This document shows positions 19,575 through 26,509 of a stretch of 64,000 bases of DNA, one piece after another; the stretch's first letter is position 1, and every line of letters starts with the position of its first letter. The position numbers and the translations under genes are program-made. The notes under the pieces were generated by a model that made no database searches, was not told the DNA's origin, and saw nothing but the letters and a program-made list of their open reading frames with translations. The stretch spans positions 11,011,501-11,075,500 of the forward strand of contig NZ_JAUSZI010000002.1 of the NCBI RefSeq assembly GCF_030817415.1. Reading direction: 5' to 3'. Source of the DNA: Streptomyces umbrinus. GTDB lineage: Bacteria > Actinomycetota > Actinomycetes > Streptomycetales > Streptomycetaceae.

Positions 19575-20495
19575 TCACGGCCGGCCGGTCACCGTTCCCC
19601 CGAGTGCAGCCGCCCGGTGCACGAAGGCCTCGTGCAGATCGTGGGCGGCCCGCGGCACCGAGTCCGCCTTGCGCCGCTGCAGCATCAACAGCACGCGCGT
19701 CGAGTCGTCGGCCAGCGGACGGCAGAGGATGGAGCCCTGCCGTTCCAGCGGATCGTCGATCACGCTGAAGTCGGGCAGCACCGTGGCCCCCAGCCCTTCC
19801 GCCACCATCAGTTTGCCCATCTCCGCACCGTCGGTGGAGTAGGAGAAGGACGGCTCGCGGTCGCCCAGCAGCCGGTGGACGTAGCGGTGCATCACATAGC
19901 CTGAGCGCATCGCGATGAGCGGTTCCGCGAGCAGGTCGGACACGGACACCACCGGGAGCGACGCCAGCGGACTGTCCGGCCGCACGCACACCACCGGCCG
20001 CCCGCGCAGCAGCTCCGTGGAGTCGAAGTCGGCGGCCACGTCGTCACCCTCCAGGTGATTCACCAGACCGAGGTCGAAGCCGCCCTCCAACAGGGTCCGG
20101 TGGATCTCCGACTGCTGGGCGCCGACGACCTCCACCTGCGTCGCCGGATGCGTGGCGCGGAACTCCCGTACGGCAGGAATGAGCAGCGGCACCGTCGCCG
20201 CGTTCACCGTGCCGACGCGCACCATGCGACTGATGCGGTGCTGCTCGCCCGCGGCGCCCCGCAGCCGGTCCACCGCATCGAGGACGTTGATGATGTGCGG
20301 CAGCAGCTCCCGCCCCTCCGCGCTCATCTTCGCGCCGGTCCGCTTGCGCTCCAGGAGGTCGACCCCGAGTTCCCGCTCCAGATTCCGCACGGTCTCGCTC
20401 AACGCGGGCTGGGAGAGGTGGAGTTCCTCGGCCGCGCGGCGCAGCGAACCGAGCCGGGTGACCGCCGTGATGTATTCCAGCTGCTCTATTCGCAC
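19575..20495 (-). CDS. LysR-family transcriptional regulator of the sulfur-scavenging operon
   Basis: The protein is 306 aa from GTG 20495, the start that places the HTH at the usual distance (RIEQLEYITAVTRLGSLRRA, then AEELHLSQPALSETVRNLER). The C-terminal periplasmic-binding-like domain includes GLVNHLEGDDVAADFDS and GLGATVLPDFSVIDDPLERQ. LysR proteins bind T-N11-A sites and usually activate a divergent operon with a small-molecule co-inducer. Here the divergent operon encodes sulfone/sulfonate enzymes, so a CysB/Cbl/SfnR-like role in sulfur limitation is likely by context. Start codons are 138 bp from the leader peptide. Confidence 0.88.
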   Translation of the reverse strand: MRIEQLEYITAVTRLGSLRRAAEELHLSQPALSETVRNLERELGVDLLERKRTGAKMSAEGRELLPHIINVLDAVDRLRGAAGEQHRISRMVRVGTVNAATVPLLIPAVREFRATHPATQVEVVGAQQSEIHRTLLEGGFDLGLVNHLEGDDVAADFDSTELLRGRPVVCVRPDSPLASLPVVSVSDLLAEPLIAMRSGYVMHRYVHRLLGDREPSFSYSTDGAEMGKLMVAEGLGATVLPDFSVIDDPLERQGSILCRPLADDSTRVLLMLQRRKADSVPRAAHDLHEAFVHRAAALGGTVTGRP

Positions 20496-20867
20496 CCCAG
20501 CAGAATGCGGTGCCCGCAACGCCCTGTTCAAGGGCTGCCCTGTCACGCCTTCGTGAAATTCGCCGGTCCGCGATGCGAGACCGATCGGGTATTCCTTGAC
20601 GGTCAGGACCGACGGCTGCCACGATCGAGAACATGATGATGCGACTGGACCTCACGCGGCGACGCCACGTCGACCTCGCGCGTGTCTCCAGCGCCGCCTG
20701 TTGCTCCGTGGCCTGATCCACCGGATCCGCTGCGCCTCGCACCCCCTCTTCTTCCGACGCCCACGGCTGCCGTAAAGCCGTGAGTCGCTTTCCGCCGCCC
20801 GAATTCGGCAATGCACTGCCACCCGCCGAATTCGGCCTGCCTGAATTCCCCGCAACAGGAGTTCCGC
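20496..20867 (+). promoter_or_regulatory. Regulatory leader region of the sulfur operon
   Basis: This 372-bp gap holds a promoter (TTGACG at 20596-20601, 18-bp spacer, CACGAT at 20620-20625), the leader peptide ORF, a hairpin CACGGCT/AGCCGTG at 20762-20782, and two copies of the palindrome CCGAATTCGG (20799-20808, 20826-20835) with a third GAATTC at 20843-20848, just before the sfnG ribosome-binding site AGGAG. The order promoter, Cys-codon ORF, hairpin, structural gene fits an attenuation leader. Confidence 0.6.
20633..20716 (+). CDS. Cysteine-containing leader peptide, putative attenuator
   Basis: A 27-codon ORF starts with three consecutive ATGs (20633, 20636, 20639). Its product contains MRLDLTRRRHVDLARVSSAA followed by Cys-Cys-Ser-Val-Ala and stop. 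The R-x-H-V-D-L-x-R-V motif followed by cysteines matches the actinobacterial putative leader peptides that precede sulfur-assimilation genes. The -10 hexamer ends at 20625, so transcription should begin at or just before 20633 and the ORF is probably leaderless. Slow reading of the adjacent Cys codons when Cys-tRNA is scarce would change folding of the downstream RNA and permit sfnG expression. Confidence 0.75.
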   Translation: MMMRLDLTRRRHVDLARVSSAACCSVA

Positions 20868-22004
20868 ATGCCTGCCGAAAACCCGTCCGCAGACCCCGTC
20901 CGCTTCGCCTACTGGGTGCCCAACGTCAGCGGCGGCCTGGTCACCAGCAAGATCGAGCAGCGCACCGACTGGGGCTACGAGTACAACCGCGAACTCGCCG
21001 TCCTGGCCGAGAACAACGGCTTCGACTACGCCCTCAGCCAGGTCCGCTACATGGCCAGCTACGGCGCCGAGTTCCAGCACGAGTCGACCAGCTTCAGCCT
21101 CGCCCTGCTGCTCGCCACCCAGCGTCTGAAGGTCATCGCCGCCGTCCACCCCGGCCTCTGGCACCCGGGCGTCCTCGCCAAACTCGGCGCCACCGCCGAC
21201 CACCTGTCGAACGGCCGCTTCGCCGTCAACGTCGTCTCCGGCTGGTTCAAGGGCGAGTTCACCGCCCTCGGCGAGCCCTGGCTGGAGCACGACGAGCGCT
21301 ACCGCCGCTCCGAGGAGTTCATCCAGGCCCTGCGTCAGATCTGGACCGAGGACCACACCGAACTCGCCGGTGACTTCTACCGGTTGCGCGACTTCTCCCT
21401 CAAGCCCAAGCCCCTCAACACCGTCGAGCGCCCCCACCCGGAGATCTTCCAGGGCGGCAACTCCACCGCCGCCCGCGCGATGGCCGGCCGGGTCTCCGAC
21501 TGGTACTTCTCCAACGGCAAGGACTTCGACGGGGTCGTCGAACAGCTCGCGGACGTACGGGCATCAGCGGCCCAAGTGGGCCGTACGGCACCGAAGTTCG
21601 GCCTCAACGGCTTCCTGATCGCCCGTGACACCGAGGCCGAGGCCCGCGAGACCCTCCGCGAGATCGTCGCCCACGCCGACCGCGAGGCCGTCGAGGGATT
21701 CGGCGCCGCAGTGAAGCAGGCCGGACAATCCGCCGCGGACGGCAAGGGCATGTGGCAGGACTCCTCCTTCGAGGACCTCGTCCAGTACAACGACGGCTTC
21801 CGTACGGGGCTGATCGGCACCCCGGAGCAGATCGCCGAACGGATCGTCGCGTACAAGCGCCTCGGCGTCGACCTCCTGCTTCTCGGCTTCCTCCACTACC
21901 ACGAGGAGGTCGAGTACTTCGGCCGCCGCGTGCTGCCGCTCGTACGCGAACTGGAAGCCCAACTCCCGGACACCGAGCCCGAGTCCGCACCCGTCCACGC
22001 CTGA
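20868..22004 (+). CDS. sfnG: FMNH2-dependent dimethylsulfone monooxygenase
   Basis: The protein is 378 aa from ATG 20868, with AGGAG upstream. It is a luciferase-like monooxygenase matching the SfnG branch: FAYWVPNVSGGLVTSKIEQR at the N-terminus, GFDYALSQVRYMASYGAEFQ, VNVVSGWFKGEF, and GLIGTPEQIAERIVAYKRLG near the C-terminus. SfnG converts dimethylsulfone to methanesulfinate with FMNH2 and O2. The reductant would come from the FMN reductase now separated from it by the IS110 element. It is the first structural gene after the Cys leader. Confidence 0.9.
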   Translation: MPAENPSADPVRFAYWVPNVSGGLVTSKIEQRTDWGYEYNRELAVLAENNGFDYALSQVRYMASYGAEFQHESTSFSLALLLATQRLKVIAAVHPGLWHPGVLAKLGATADHLSNGRFAVNVVSGWFKGEFTALGEPWLEHDERYRRSEEFIQALRQIWTEDHTELAGDFYRLRDFSLKPKPLNTVERPHPEIFQGGNSTAARAMAGRVSDWYFSNGKDFDGVVEQLADVRASAAQVGRTAPKFGLNGFLIARDTEAEARETLREIVAHADREAVEGFGAAVKQAGQSAADGKGMWQDSSFEDLVQYNDGFRTGLIGTPEQIAERIVAYKRLGVDLLLLGFLHYHEEVEYFGRRVLPLVRELEAQLPDTEPESAPVHA

Positions 22005-22056: not shown

Positions 22057-23369
22057 TCTCAATGACGAAGTCAAGCCGCCTGCGTGACCGGCGGAGCGGA
22101 GGTGAACACCCGTCCGTCACGCAGCAGAGCCCACAACACACTCGCTCGTCGGCGGGCCAGGGCGATGACGGCCTGGACGTGTTTGCAGCCCTCGCCCCGC
22201 TTCTTGAGGTAGAAGTCCCGGTTCGGTCCCTCGCGGATGATGCTGGTCTGCGCGGACATGTAGAACACCCGTCGCAGGCGGCGGCTGTAGCGTTTGGGCC
22301 GGTGAAGGTTGCCGGTGCGCCGGCCGGAGTCACGCGGGACGGGCACCAGCCCGGCCGCCGACGCCAGGTGGCCGGCGTCGGCGTAGGCCGACAAGTCGCC
22401 GGCGGACACGACGAACTCGGCCCCGAGTATCGGGCCCATCCCGGGCAGGGATTCGATGATCTCCGCCTGCGGGTGACCGCGGAACGTGTCGCGGATCTGC
22501 TTGTCGATCCGCTTGAGCCGGTCGTCCAGGGCCAGGATCTGCCCGGCCAGGTCGGCCACGATCTGCGCGGCGACGTCCTCGCCGGGCAGCGCGGTCTGCT
22601 GGGCTTGTGCCGCCTCCAGTGCGGTCGCGGCGACCTCGTCGGCGCTGCGCACGCTGCGGTTGGCCAGCCAGGCTGTCAGCCTCGCCCGGCCGCGGCGGCG
22701 GATGGCGGCCGGGGTCTGGTAACCCGTCAGCAGGACCAGCGCGCCTTTGTGCGAGCTGTAGTCGAAGGCCCGCTCCAGCGCGGGGAAGACGCCGGTCAGC
22801 ACATCGCGCAGGCGGTTGATCATCCGCACGCGGTCGGCCACCAGGTCGGAGCGGTGGGCGGTCAGCAGCGCGAGGTCGGCGGCCAGCTGGGCGGGCACGT
22901 CGATGGCGGTGAAGTCGTTGCGGTGGCGGGCGGTCTCGGCGATGACGTAGGCGTCGCGGGCGTCGGTCTTCGCCTCACCCCGGTAGGCACCCGACATGCG
23001 GTTGACCGTGCGGCCAGGCACGTAGACGGCCCGCTGGCCGTGGGCCGCGAGCAGGGCCAACAGCAGAGCCGAGGACGTGCCGGAGATGTCCACCGCCCAG
23101 TGAACCTCGTCCGCCAGATCGAGGATCTCGCCGAGCGCGGCCAGGATCGCCGACTCGTCGTTGTCGATCTTCTTCGACCACAACGTGGCGCCGGTCTCAT
23201 CGACCACAGCCGCCCAGTGGTGGCCCTTGCCCGCGTCGACACCGGCCCAGAGCTGGGCCCTCCGCTTGCTCACTCGCCCTCCTCGCGCCGTTCGGCATGC
23301 CGTCGGCCCGAGGAACACCCCGCTGTCATCTCCGTAATCAGCGACCGCACGAAGCGCGCACATCTCAAT
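22057..23369 (-). mobile_element. IS110-family insertion sequence inside the sulfur operon
   Basis: A complete IS110-type transposase gene (22071-23273, minus) interrupts the plus-strand operon between sfnG and the FMN reductase gene. IS110 elements lack conventional terminal inverted repeats, so ends are hard to set. A 7-bp direct repeat TCTCAAT at 22057-22063 and 23363-23369 gives plausible limits of about 1.3 kb, but the right end could lie further on, up to about 23470. IS110-group elements carry a guide (bridge) RNA in a non-coding end 5' of the transposase; only 96 bp lie there with these limits, which argues for a more distant right end. Confidence 0.75.
22071..23273 (-). CDS. IS110-family transposase (DEDD recombinase)
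   Basis: The protein is 400 aa from GTG 23273 with GAGGAGGGC upstream. The N-terminal RuvC-like DEDD domain shows AGVDAGKGHHWAAVVDETGA (first Asp) and KTDARDAYVIAETARHRNDF (third/fourth acidic residues). The C-terminal Tnp_IS116/IS110/IS902 domain has ESLPGMGPILGAEFVVSAGD and the later SAAGLVPVPRDSGRRTG with the conserved Ser. It catalyses RNA-guided site-specific insertion of its element. The frame looks intact, so the element may be active. It is transcribed against the operon it interrupts. Confidence 0.93.
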   Translation of the reverse strand: MSKRRAQLWAGVDAGKGHHWAAVVDETGATLWSKKIDNDESAILAALGEILDLADEVHWAVDISGTSSALLLALLAAHGQRAVYVPGRTVNRMSGAYRGEAKTDARDAYVIAETARHRNDFTAIDVPAQLAADLALLTAHRSDLVADRVRMINRLRDVLTGVFPALERAFDYSSHKGALVLLTGYQTPAAIRRRGRARLTAWLANRSVRSADEVAATALEAAQAQQTALPGEDVAAQIVADLAGQILALDDRLKRIDKQIRDTFRGHPQAEIIESLPGMGPILGAEFVVSAGDLSAYADAGHLASAAGLVPVPRDSGRRTGNLHRPKRYSRRLRRVFYMSAQTSIIREGPNRDFYLKKRGEGCKHVQAVIALARRRASVLWALLRDGRVFTSAPPVTQAA

Positions 23370-23485
23370 CAGCAGCCAGGGCGCCCCGGAGAGCCGGGCG
23401 GCCACTCCTTCGAAGCCACTGAAGGCAAGAACCCATAAGCCACACCCGGCCCTCCCGGGCCGCCTAACAACTTACGGAGAAACCC

Positions 23486-24040
23486 ATGGCCACCGTCCTG
23501 TCCGTCTCCGGCAGCCCCTCCGCCTCCTCCCGCACCAACCGACTCCTGCGCCACCTGGACAACCGGCTGACCGCGCAGGGTCACGAGGTGATCCCGCTCG
23601 ACGTCCGTACGATCCCCGCCGAGGCCCTGCTCGGCGCCGACTTCAGGCATCCGGCGATCGTCGAGGCCACCGCGCTCTTCGCCCGCGTCGACGGCATCGT
23701 CATCGGCACCCCCGTCTACAAGGCCGCCTACTCCGGCGTCCTCAAGGCGCTGCTCGACCTGCTTCCGCAGTACGCCCTCACCGGCAAGACCGTGCTGCCC
23801 CTGGCGACCGGGGGCACCACCGCGCACGTGCTGGCCATCGACTACGCCCTGCGCCCGGTGCTCAGCTCCATGGGCGCCCGGCACATCGTCCAGGGCTGGT
23901 TCACCCTCGACAAGGACATCGCGGTGGGCGAGGACGGCGGACTCACGGTGGCACCCGCGGCCGCCGAGGCGCTGACCCAGGTGCTCGACCAGTTCTCCGA
24001 GGCCCTGGGCCGTACGCCGGTCCTGGCCGCGGCGAGCTGA
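23486..24040 (+). CDS. NADPH-dependent FMN reductase (SsuE/MsuE type)
   Basis: The protein is 184 aa from ATG 23486 with CGGAGA upstream. The flavodoxin-like fold shows VLSVSGSPSASSRTNRLLRH (phosphate-binding loop) and DGIVIGTPVYKAAYSGVLKA, the hallmark of the SsuE family, then GKTVLPLATGGTTAHVLAID. It reduces FMN with NAD(P)H and hands FMNH2 to the partner monooxygenases SfnG and SsuD. It is followed 2 bp later by sfnB. Its own promoter is unclear; the IS110 element lies directly upstream, so its expression may now depend on a promoter in or beyond the element. Confidence 0.9.
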   Translation: MATVLSVSGSPSASSRTNRLLRHLDNRLTAQGHEVIPLDVRTIPAEALLGADFRHPAIVEATALFARVDGIVIGTPVYKAAYSGVLKALLDLLPQYALTGKTVLPLATGGTTAHVLAIDYALRPVLSSMGARHIVQGWFTLDKDIAVGEDGGLTVAPAAAEALTQVLDQFSEALGRTPVLAAAS

Positions 24041-24042
24041 CC

Positions 24043-25275
24043 GTGTCCGCACAGGCCTCTACCCAGGTCTCCGCGCAGACCTCCGTCCGGGGCGCCGCCA
24101 AGCTCATCGCCGACGATGCTGAGGCCCTGACCGTCGCCGCCGCACTGGCCGACGAGTTCCGGGCCGGGGCTTCCCGGCGGGACGCCGAACGCGGGCTCCC
24201 CCGGGAGGAGTTGGACCGGCTCTCCGACTCCGGCCTGCTCGCCGTCACCGTGCCCGCCGAGCACGGTGGCGCCGACGTACGGCAGGAGACTCTCGCCGAG
24301 ATCTTCCGGCTCCTCGCCTCGGCCGACGCCAGCTTCGCCCAGATCCCGCAGAGCCACTTCGTCTATGTCAATGTGATCCGCCGTCAGGGGACCCCGGAGC
24401 AGCGGACGTTCTTCTTCGGCGAGGTGCTGGCCGGGCGCCGCTTCGGCAACGCCCAGTCGGAGGCCGGCACGAAGCACGTCCAGGACATCCGCACCCGATT
24501 GGAGCCGGCCTCGGACGGTTCGTACGTCCTCACCGGCGTCAAGCACTACTCCACGGGCGCCCTCTTCGCCGACTGGATTCCGGTCCTCGCCCGCGCCGAG
24601 GACGACAACCTGCACGTCGCGTACGTACCCCGGGACGCCGAAGGCCTCACGGTCGTCGACGACTGGGACGGCATGGGCCAGCGCACCACCGCCAGCGGCA
24701 CCGTCAGGCTCGACGCCGTACCCGTGCCCCCCGACCGGGTCCTCCCGCACCACCTCACCTTCCGGGGCCCCCAACTCCACGGCGCAGTGGCCCAGTTGCT
24801 GCACGCCGCCATCGACGCCGGGATCGCGGCGGGCGCACTCGCCGAGGCCGCGGAGTTCGTCCGCACGAAGAGCCGACCGTGGTTCGAGAGCGGTGTCGAG
24901 ACCGCCGTCGAGGATCCGCTGCTCATCCAGCGCTTCGGGGAGCTGGCCATTCAGGTGCGGGCCACCGAGGCGCTGCTCGGCGCGGCGGCCCGGGCGGTCG
25001 ACACGGCCCGCGCCGACCTGACGGAGGCGTCGGCGGCCGAGGCGTCCATCGCCGTGGCCGCGGCGAAGGCTCACGCCGCGAGCACCGCCGTCGAGGTGTC
25101 GGGCGCGCTCTTCGAGGTGTCCGGCACCCGGTCCGCCCTCAACTCCCTCAATCTGCACCGGCATTGGCGCGACGCCCGCACCCACACACTGCACGACCCG
25201 GCCCGCTGGAAGATCCAGCACATCGGCCGGTATGTACTGAACGGCACGTTGCCCCCACGGCACGGACTCCTCTGA
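24043..25275 (+). CDS. sfnB: SfnB-family flavin-dependent sulfur-acquisition monooxygenase
   Basis: The protein is 410 aa from GTG 24043. It has the acyl-CoA-dehydrogenase fold in the DszC/SfnB branch: SDSGLLAVTVPAEHGGADVR, ADASFAQIPQSHFVYVNVIR, LTGVKHYSTGALFADWIPVL and a C-terminal HRHWRDARTHTLHDPARWKI. SfnB proteins belong to sulfur-starvation loci for dimethylsulfone or related compounds; the exact reaction is not settled. It begins 2 bp after the FMN reductase stop, so translation is coupled. It supports the idea that the locus recovers sulfur from organosulfur compounds. Confidence 0.88.
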   Translation: MSAQASTQVSAQTSVRGAAKLIADDAEALTVAAALADEFRAGASRRDAERGLPREELDRLSDSGLLAVTVPAEHGGADVRQETLAEIFRLLASADASFAQIPQSHFVYVNVIRRQGTPEQRTFFFGEVLAGRRFGNAQSEAGTKHVQDIRTRLEPASDGSYVLTGVKHYSTGALFADWIPVLARAEDDNLHVAYVPRDAEGLTVVDDWDGMGQRTTASGTVRLDAVPVPPDRVLPHHLTFRGPQLHGAVAQLLHAAIDAGIAAGALAEAAEFVRTKSRPWFESGVETAVEDPLLIQRFGELAIQVRATEALLGAAARAVDTARADLTEASAAEASIAVAAAKAHAASTAVEVSGALFEVSGTRSALNSLNLHRHWRDARTHTLHDPARWKIQHIGRYVLNGTLPPRHGLL

Positions 25276-25363: not shown

Positions 25364-26509
25364 GTGTCCCTCACCTTCCACTGGTTCCTGCCCACCAACG
25401 GCGACAGCCGTCATGTCGTCGGCGGCGGCCACGGCACCCCGGCCACGGTGTCCGGCCGGGACCGGCCGCCGACGGTCGCCTATCTCAGCCAGATCGCCCG
25501 CGCCGCCGAGGACCTGGGCTTCGTCGGCGCGCTCACGCCCACCGGCGCCTGGTGCGAGGACGCCTGGCTGACCACCGCGATGGTCAGCCAGAACACCGAG
25601 CGGCTGAAGTTCCTGGTCGCCTTCCGGCCGGGCTTCGTTTCCCCGACGCTCGCCGCGCAGATGGCGTCGACCTTCCAGCGCCAGTCCGGCGGACGGCTCC
25701 TCCTCAACGTCGTCACCGGCGGCGAGAGCCACGAGCAGCGCGCCTACGGCGACTTCCTCGACAAGGACGCCCGCTACCGCCGTACCGGCGAGTTCCTGCA
25801 GATCGTCCGGGACCTGTGGGAGGGCAAGACCGTCGACCTGTCCGGCGAGTTCCTCCAGGTCGAGGACGCCAAGCTCGCCCGTGTGCCCGACCCGGTCCCC
25901 GAGGTCTACTTCGGCGGATCCTCGCCCATCGCGGGCGAGGTCGCGGCCAAGCACGTGGACGTGTACCTCACGTGGGGCGAACCGCCCGCGCAGGTCGCCG
26001 AGAAGGTCGCGTGGGTCCGCGCGCTGGCGGAGAAGGAGGGGCGCAGCGTCCGGTTCGGCATCCGCCTGCACGTCATCACCCGGGACACCTCCGAGCAGGC
26101 CTGGGCCGAGGCGGACCGGCTGCTGGCCGGTTTCGACCCGGAGACCGTGAAGTCCGTACAGGCCGGTCTCGCCCGCAGCGAGTCCGAGGGCCAGCAGCGG
26201 ATGCTCGCCCTGCACGGCGGCGGCAACCGCGACGGCCTGGAGATCCATCCCAACCTCTGGGCCGGCATCGGACTCGTGCGCGGCGGCGCGGGCACCGCCC
26301 TGGTCGGCAGCCACGACGAGGTCGCCGAGCGCATCGCCGAGTACCACCGCCTCGGCATCGACGAGTTCGTGCTCTCCGGCTATCCGCACCTGGAGGAGGC
26401 GTACTGGTTCGGCGAGGGCGTCCTGCCCCGGCTCGCCGCGCAGGGCCTGTGGCGGCACCCGTTCGCCGAGCGTCCGGCCCCCGCGGCGCAGGTGCCGTTC
26501 GCGAGCTGA
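25364..26509 (+). CDS. ssuD: FMNH2-dependent alkanesulfonate monooxygenase
   Basis: The protein is 381 aa from GTG 25364. It is a luciferase-like monooxygenase with SsuD features: FHWFLPTNGDSRHVVGG at the N-terminus, NVVTGGESHEQRAYGDFLDK, YFGGSSPIAGEVAAKHVDVY, and VLSGYPHLEEAYWFGEGVLP at the C-terminus. SsuD cleaves C1-C10 alkanesulfonates to aldehyde and sulfite using FMNH2 and O2. It ends the operon; a strong terminator follows. No ssuABC sulfonate transporter is present in the window, so uptake must be encoded elsewhere. Confidence 0.93.
   Translation: MSLTFHWFLPTNGDSRHVVGGGHGTPATVSGRDRPPTVAYLSQIARAAEDLGFVGALTPTGAWCEDAWLTTAMVSQNTERLKFLVAFRPGFVSPTLAAQMASTFQRQSGGRLLLNVVTGGESHEQRAYGDFLDKDARYRRTGEFLQIVRDLWEGKTVDLSGEFLQVEDAKLARVPDPVPEVYFGGSSPIAGEVAAKHVDVYLTWGEPPAQVAEKVAWVRALAEKEGRSVRFGIRLHVITRDTSEQAWAEADRLLAGFDPETVKSVQAGLARSESEGQQRMLALHGGGNRDGLEIHPNLWAGIGLVRGGAGTALVGSHDEVAERIAEYHRLGIDEFVLSGYPHLEEAYWFGEGVLPRLAAQGLWRHPFAERPAPAAQVPFAS

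Follow-up and report, generated by a model that had tools for sequence, protein, structure and literature searches.

A conserved Cys-codon leader peptide gene in front of sfnG in Streptomyces, and the case for a ribosome-read cysteine sensor

In front of sfnG, which encodes a dimethylsulfone monooxygenase (20868..22004, forward strand; TIGR04021, 630.6 bits against a cut-off of 382.95), lies a short open reading frame, MMMRLDLTRRRHVDLARVSSAACCSVA (20633..20716, forward strand), which sequence comparison identifies as a leader-peptide gene and not a chance ORF. Positions are those of the window, the whole stretch of 64,000 nt from Streptomyces umbrinus that was analysed. We favour a reading in which this ORF would serve as a ribosome-read cysteine sensor for sfnG, and from the comparisons and from RNA folding models we give it a probability of roughly 0.6. 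If it is true, sulfone scavenging in Streptomyces would stand under a cysteine-reading leader like the mycobacterial ones. Leaders with Cys codons are a known kind; new are the form linked to sfnG and a constraint on the choice of one codon. The fixed distance between an aspartate and a UGU codon, which the initial annotation missed, is the more unusual feature.

The leader ORF and its surroundings

The ORF has 27 codons and ends with the Cys codons TGT TGC (20699-20704) followed by Ser-Val-Ala-stop, in agreement with the initial annotation, which had described adjacent Cys codons shortly before the stop. It matches the NCBIfam family NF042934 ('putative leader peptide', cis_reg_atten) with 33.6 bits, or 32.0 bits in the genome-wide search, at a curated cut-off of 27, the model aligning to leader residues 7-23. 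The name of the family carries no tested mechanism, and its association with sfnG and the TGT rule described below come from the present analysis.

Relatives of sfnG were collected from one-genome-per-species contigs, where at least 590 stretches encode one, and the best 80 were kept. The comparison with leaders of sfnG homologues that had been proposed earlier speaks for the ORF, as a cognate leader lies within 600 nt 5' of sfnG in 60 of these best 80 loci. They comprise all 58 Streptomyces loci, one from Actinacidiphila (L090) and one from a Pseudonocardiales MAG (L098), while the leader regex found none within the same 600 nt in the 20 other loci (Actinomadura, Nocardia, Gordonia, Williamsia, Microbispora and others). 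That regex did not require Cys. A later and stricter one, which required Cys near the end, lost L090, so that all later sets of 60 consist of the window and 59 loci; the L090 leader also carries TGT.

The ratio pN/pS of the leader codons is 0.19 (36 distinct sequences, 12 codons, no correction for kinship), which indicates at the sequence level that they are under purifying selection. A functionless chance ORF might be suspected, as short ORFs are common and 12 of at least 20 aa occur around this spot. This has a negligible probability and was rejected because of the family match, the conservation in 60 of the 80 loci and the pN/pS value, and it is also contradicted by the TGT counts given below. 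A DNA pattern for RRHVDL had 8 matches in the strain's own genome compared to 3 for the reversed pattern. A known Rfam element was likewise rejected, the sole match being far below its gathering score.

Downstream of sfnG, all on the forward strand, are genes for an ssuE-like FMN reductase (23486-24040; TIGR03567 over cut-off), for SfnB (24043-25275; TIGR04022 over cut-off) and for an ssuD-like monooxygenase (25364-26509), the last with scores below both cut-offs (PRK00719, 481/510 bits; TIGR03565, 469.9/518.2 bits). The order ssuE-sfnB-ssuD is the same in most Streptomyces relatives with a long enough contig. An IS110-family transposase gene (22071-23405, reverse strand) separates these genes from sfnG. 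In the stretches of the 80 relatives (flanks reaching 6 kb at most, and less in some), tblastn listed no copy that spans half of this gene. It therefore has the appearance of a recent insertion, and the operon may be interrupted by it in this strain. In L037 and many other loci an additional acyl-CoA-dehydrogenase-like gene (~37% identity to SfnB) is found between sfnG and ssuE.

A near-invariant UGU codon nine residues after a conserved aspartate

Positions in the leaders were counted from the D of [HA][VI]D[LFY]xR as zero, which places a Cys codon at +9. In the window this is the UGU at 20699..20701 (forward strand), the proposed sensor codon, and all 60 sfnG leaders have TGT there. At the place of the second Cys codon (UGC, 20702..20704, forward strand), the same set has 33 Cys and 27 Arg. 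Among the leaders read in the strain's own genome, 12 of 13 have TGT at Asp+9 and the other has TGA. A phylum search yielded TGT at 62 of 68 places outside the own genome, the exceptions being 2 TGA and one each of TAG, GGG, TGC and GTT, the last in a low-scoring and probable non-member. From the matches listed in a class sample, 61 further places were chosen by hand for their spread over 23 families; 60 have TGT and one has TGC, and TGT occurs in 22 of the 23 families. When the non-sfnG sets are pooled, a Cys at Asp+9 is encoded by TGT in 134 of 136 cases. The sets overlap slightly, as two of them contain the window leader and some of the places from the phylum search resemble sfnG leaders, and all of these counts are uncorrected for kinship by a tree. 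Because the family search works at the protein level, it does not select codons, although it may favour the fixed spacing.

Elsewhere in the leaders TGC is the commoner Cys codon. In the non-sfnG sets, TGT makes up 4/58 of the Cys codons at +2 and 10/41 of those at +7, and other U-ending codons are also in the minority (GAT in 32/141 for Asp, CAT in 21/97 for His). In the genes of the window and of 55 Streptomyces loci, 95 of 572 Cys codons are TGT. The remaining Cys codons of the leaders (sfnG, own-genome and phylum sets) comprise 111 TGC and 46 TGT, with TGT commoner at +10 (14/45) and in the majority at +11 (15/21). Cys codons with a final U are therefore found at other positions too, but near-invariance is seen at +9 alone. 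In 97 of 123 distinct leaders, the Asp+9 codon is followed by C. Such a constraint among synonymous codons is not what ordinary codon-hunger attenuation predicts, and no account of it was found in open-licence PMC papers.

A choice between tRNAs is not a likely cause. An initial tRNA pattern gave no matches in the own genome. With further pattern scans, 7 of 17 GCA-type matches were run in ARAGORN and two proved to be tRNA-Cys(GCA), while none of the ACA-type matches, all 9 of which were run, was a Cys tRNA. A dedicated tRNA-Cys with an ACA anticodon was rejected on these scans, and tRNA-Cys(GCA), with two genes, is the sole Cys tRNA found, both statements holding within the limits of the patterns. 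This tRNA reads UGU by G-U wobble. As it is the only one found, selective charging of an isoacceptor cannot explain the UGU rule, and if UGU is read by wobble on this tRNA alone, the rule would reflect decoding kinetics and not tRNA choice. We propose that it reflects the kinetics of decoding at an A site primed by the peptide. Pairing with the Shine-Dalgarno (SD) region of sfnG was considered as a general reason for UGU and rejected, since TGT is also found where this pairing is absent.

These observations bear on the question of what would make the ribosome stall. The peptide itself might do so, with R-x-H-V-D-L-x-R in the exit tunnel at a fixed distance from UGU setting the stall, which would then not depend on codon hunger alone. 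This explanation is compatible with a cysteine sensor. It accords with a peptide that is conserved while its codons drift synonymously, with the almost invariant distance of 9 and the almost invariant UGU, and with the many members in which just one Cys comes after the motif. In four members (L019, L137b and L154, of the LTRRLHIDL type, and L153) a stop codon is found exactly at Asp+9, which also speaks for this explanation. The spacing by itself is a partly circular argument, however, as the HMM and the regexes favour a fixed spacing, and the conservation of the peptide could have other causes, the kinship of the sequences being uncorrected by a tree. We consider a role of the nascent chain possible, if somewhat improbable on present evidence. 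The member L019, with its stop codon at Asp+9, precedes a GST-like gene.

Promoter, spacer and predicted access to the Shine-Dalgarno region

The initial annotation had noted a consensus-like promoter. A promoter is predicted at 20596..20625 (forward strand), consisting of a -35-like TTGACG (20596-20601), an 18-nt spacer and a -10-like CACGAT (20620-20625) that ends 7 nt 5' of the leader ATG. The description fits the -35 box, with 5 of 6 consensus positions, but not the -10 box, which agrees with TATAAT in only 3 of 6 (counted by hand), and a strict sigma-70 scan returned no promoter. TTGAC and its spacing to the leader are retained in 32 of the 33 sequences with an RLDLT-type leader (window included), and for this reason a leaderless leader ORF is predicted; that at 20633-20716 is probably translated in this way. 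The L067 and L084 types have an SD-like stretch 5' of the leader instead.

The divergent gene for a LysR-family regulator (19575..20546, reverse strand; PF00126 and PF03466; possibly with a later start, at 20495) was correctly noted before, and it is conserved in 54 of 58 Streptomyces sfnG loci. A block 5' of the -35 box (20576-20595, GACCGGTCGGG-like) is conserved in most of the 33 sequences and could be a LysR site. One might argue from both that LysR alone controls sfnG and that the ORF merely loads ribosomes by coupling, its Cys content being irrelevant. We regard this as very improbable, for it leaves the TGT at Asp+9 in 60 of 60 sfnG leaders without a role, and the same leader type also precedes unrelated sulfur genes.

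The spacer between leader and sfnG contains the 7-bp hairpin and the repeated GAATTC of the initial annotation. The hairpin (CACGGCT-loop-AGCCGTG, 20762..20782, forward strand, from the predicted fold) is not conserved in sequence, and some stem of at least 7 bp is present in 14 of 60 spacers. The three GAATTC copies (20801..20848, forward strand, at 20801, 20828 and 20843) represent a common feature, found in 38 of the 60 sfnG spacers, often within CCTGAATTCGGC. GAATTC is enriched about 70-fold, with 63 copies in 10,277 nt of spacer vs 65 in the 763,899 nt of the rest of the loci (6.1 vs 0.085 per kb). By inspection, the GGAGTTC of the SD region is a possible pairing partner of GAATTCC.

The Cys-Cys leader had been proposed as a putative attenuator. 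The conserved NF042934 leader before sfnG supports this in part, but no intrinsic terminator was found in 20400-20900 of the window, and a classical terminator attenuator was rejected for this reason. The likelier output is then access to the SD of sfnG, with the Cys codons acting as anti-SD. Transcription would start at or near the leader AUG. As long as Cys-tRNA is plentiful, the ribosome would clear the leader ORF, so that the Cys-codon segment could pair with the SD and damp the translation of sfnG; in this strain, the last GAATTC copy might pair with the SD as well. When Cys-tRNA is scarce, the ribosome would stall on UGU and cover the Cys-codon segment, which would free the SD. Sulfone sulfur would in this way be drawn on when cysteine is short, beneath any control by the divergent LysR.

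The SD region of sfnG is GCAACAGGAG (20852..20861, forward strand; SD AGGAG at 20857-20861). The putative anti-SD arm made by the Cys codons, CCTGTTGC (20697..20704, forward strand), matches GCAACAGG (20852-20859) perfectly over 8 bp, and this pairing is present in the predicted fold (whole region, z -2.78). A longer helix of 10-11 bp occurs in 20 of the 60 sfnG loci. In 19 of these it is formed by CTCCTGTTGC and GCAACAGGAG, while in the 20th, L048, the codon and the SD flank have both changed and pair with each other (CTCCTGTCG with CGACAGGAG). The pairing is broken in most CR leaders, where GCAAC is kept and an A-C mismatch is gained, and in L047 and L081, where the SD side is altered.

When a ribosome footprint is simulated on the Cys codon, opening the SD becomes cheaper by 2.5-10.5 kcal/mol in the 19 CTCCTGTTGC loci. 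In the window the effect at the Cys codon is -0.86 kcal/mol, the best offset being -24 (-1.59). Among the other 40 loci, the cost falls by 1.1 to 4.7 kcal/mol in 10 and stays within ~1 of zero in 30, so SD masking does not hold for the sfnG loci as a whole. Averaged over the 60 loci, the effect is greatest at offsets of -12 to +12 nt (-2.9 to -2.4, with -2.46 at the Cys codon itself) compared to -1.44 at +18, -1.19 at +36, +1.16 at -42 and -0.25 at +84. The modest value of the window may be due to a second segment. Its SD-opening cost is 7.14 when nothing is blocked, 6.16 with the Cys footprint blocked, 7.18 with the last GAATTC blocked and 3.57 with both blocked. By this model, the window has two redundant anti-SD segments, the Cys codons and the last GAATTC, and the predicted release is small for that reason. 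Blocking GAATTC in six relatives adds at most ~1 kcal/mol, with L036 going in the opposite direction. We therefore predict from the folding models that a stalled ribosome would free the SD strongly in the relatives with long pairing and weakly in the window.

With random synonymous recoding of the leader, run for 28 of the 60 loci, sequestration is weakened in the seven SASCC loci that were included (z between 0.4 and 3.9). There is no difference in the window (z 0.13). Six nearby variants have z values between -0.9 and 2.4, and 14 loci from other clades have values between -1.8 and 1.0. Against a crude null of 272 other SDs, which is contaminated by false starts within genes, the pairing of the window is equalled 12.5% of the time and most of the 10-11 bp pairings 3-5% of the time. 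In an RNAduplex permutation of 13 own-genome leaders, the true leader/SD pairs were not clearly better (P 0.058). The SD null and the own-genome permutation alone do not support the pairing, and we are more confident of the leader itself than of the SD mechanism.

Alternatively, the output may be transcriptional, in that a Cys stall would shield the leader RNA against termination before sfnG, whether Rho-dependent or cryptic, the SD pairing being incidental. The 30 of 60 loci with a footprint effect near zero would fit this, as the leader is conserved there too, and a T4 run is present in 36 of the 60 spacers. Rho has been proposed for mycobacterial cys leaders in a comparative paper of 2005, according to excerpts of it (PMC1262725). 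We think this alternative unlikely, as the window lacks an intrinsic terminator in the region given above and the leader codons favour SD pairing in one clade.

Related leaders and their sulfur genes

Canestrari et al. (2020) are said to have described polycysteine leaderless short ORFs in mycobacteria, with masking of the next ribosome-binding site as the output. Such ORFs stand before sulfur genes in the excerpted literature (PMC13236596, PMC9094748, PMC9031893). The leader of the window resembles them in that its Cys codons are near the ORF end, that a sulfur gene follows and that it is predicted to be leaderless; it differs in having two adjacent Cys, and many of its relatives one, in place of a polycysteine run. 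With 26 bits for NF042933 (Ms5788A) and 23.4 bits for NF042936 (Ms4527A), it is below the 45-bit cut-offs of these two mycobacterial leader families, from which target gene and clade also set it apart. Cys-codon leaders have been published for mycobacteria and some other Actinobacteria, as far as the excerpts extend (PMC9094748, PMC4633059, PMC1262725, PMC9031893). In 2005, cys leader peptides had been put forward as candidates in Mycobacterium, P. acnes and B. longum; like ours they are Cys-codon leaders without terminators. They are located before cys operons, and the excerpts name no Streptomyces sulfur gene among those reported (PMC1262725). The cysS leader of Rhodobacterales, uORFC-8-2, is similar as a conserved uORF with tandem Cys codons, whereas UGC prevails in it and a terminator-like run of U is found, again as excerpted (PMC8632094). 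In the excerpts of a 2021 reannotation of S. lividans, eight leader peptides are listed, none of them assigned to cysteine, and the metL leader peptide contains three Cys (PMC8079986). Among open-licence PMC papers, we found none on a Streptomyces sulfur leader of the NF042934 type or on an sfnG leader.

The own genome (12.4 Mb) has 26 places with a match to NF042934 at E <=10, of which 11 are over the cut-off; in 14 control genomes none was over it. The best 13 members were read, the downstream gene being the nearest plausible ORF, chosen by hand, and several of the names given here rest on scores below NCBIfam cut-offs. The 11 members over the cut-off precede ORFs for a sulfatase (149 residues, a fragment), an NtaA/DmoA-type monooxygenase, cysteine dioxygenase, SsuA, a cysO-like protein (named from its neighbour, the gene itself having no HMM match), an SsuC-like protein, SfnG, a sulfite/nitrite reductase-like protein, a sulfite dehydrogenase-like protein, a mercaptopyruvate sulfurtransferase/rhodanese-like protein and a GST-like protein. 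The two below the cut-off precede genes for a 2OG-Fe oxygenase and a ROK regulator. The earlier remark that related leaders precede sulfur genes in Streptomyces is thus confirmed for most of the 11, so that several sulfur loci of a genome appear to be tied together by a single leader family, with no protein regulator involved. Members over the cut-off were found in 12 of 198 genomes of a phylum sample, where 8 Streptomyces genomes have 4 to 11 matches each, and in 177 of 296 genomes of a class sample.

Cysteine dioxygenase and the sulfite dehydrogenase-like protein remove cysteine or sulfite, so a simple rule of 'on when cysteine is low' is insufficient for the leader type as a whole. Either the sign of control differs at these disposal genes or the leader responds to something other than cysteine hunger alone. 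The leader of the cysteine dioxygenase gene, L011, belongs to the NF042934 family, and its place before such a gene is the opposite of what would be expected under induction by cysteine starvation.

More speculatively, an actinomycete-wide cysteine sensor in two parts may be considered, in which the nascent R-x-[HA]-[VI]-D-[LFY]-x-R would act in the tunnel and UGU would be obligatory for the Cys codon at a set distance from it. The stop-codon members would then be a branch that senses termination, and the copies would form one ribosome-directed sulfur regulon that includes sfnG. We put this forward tentatively and think it rather doubtful in this full form. Two of the leaders in the own genome, L010 and L019, are only ~600 bp apart and are divergently oriented.
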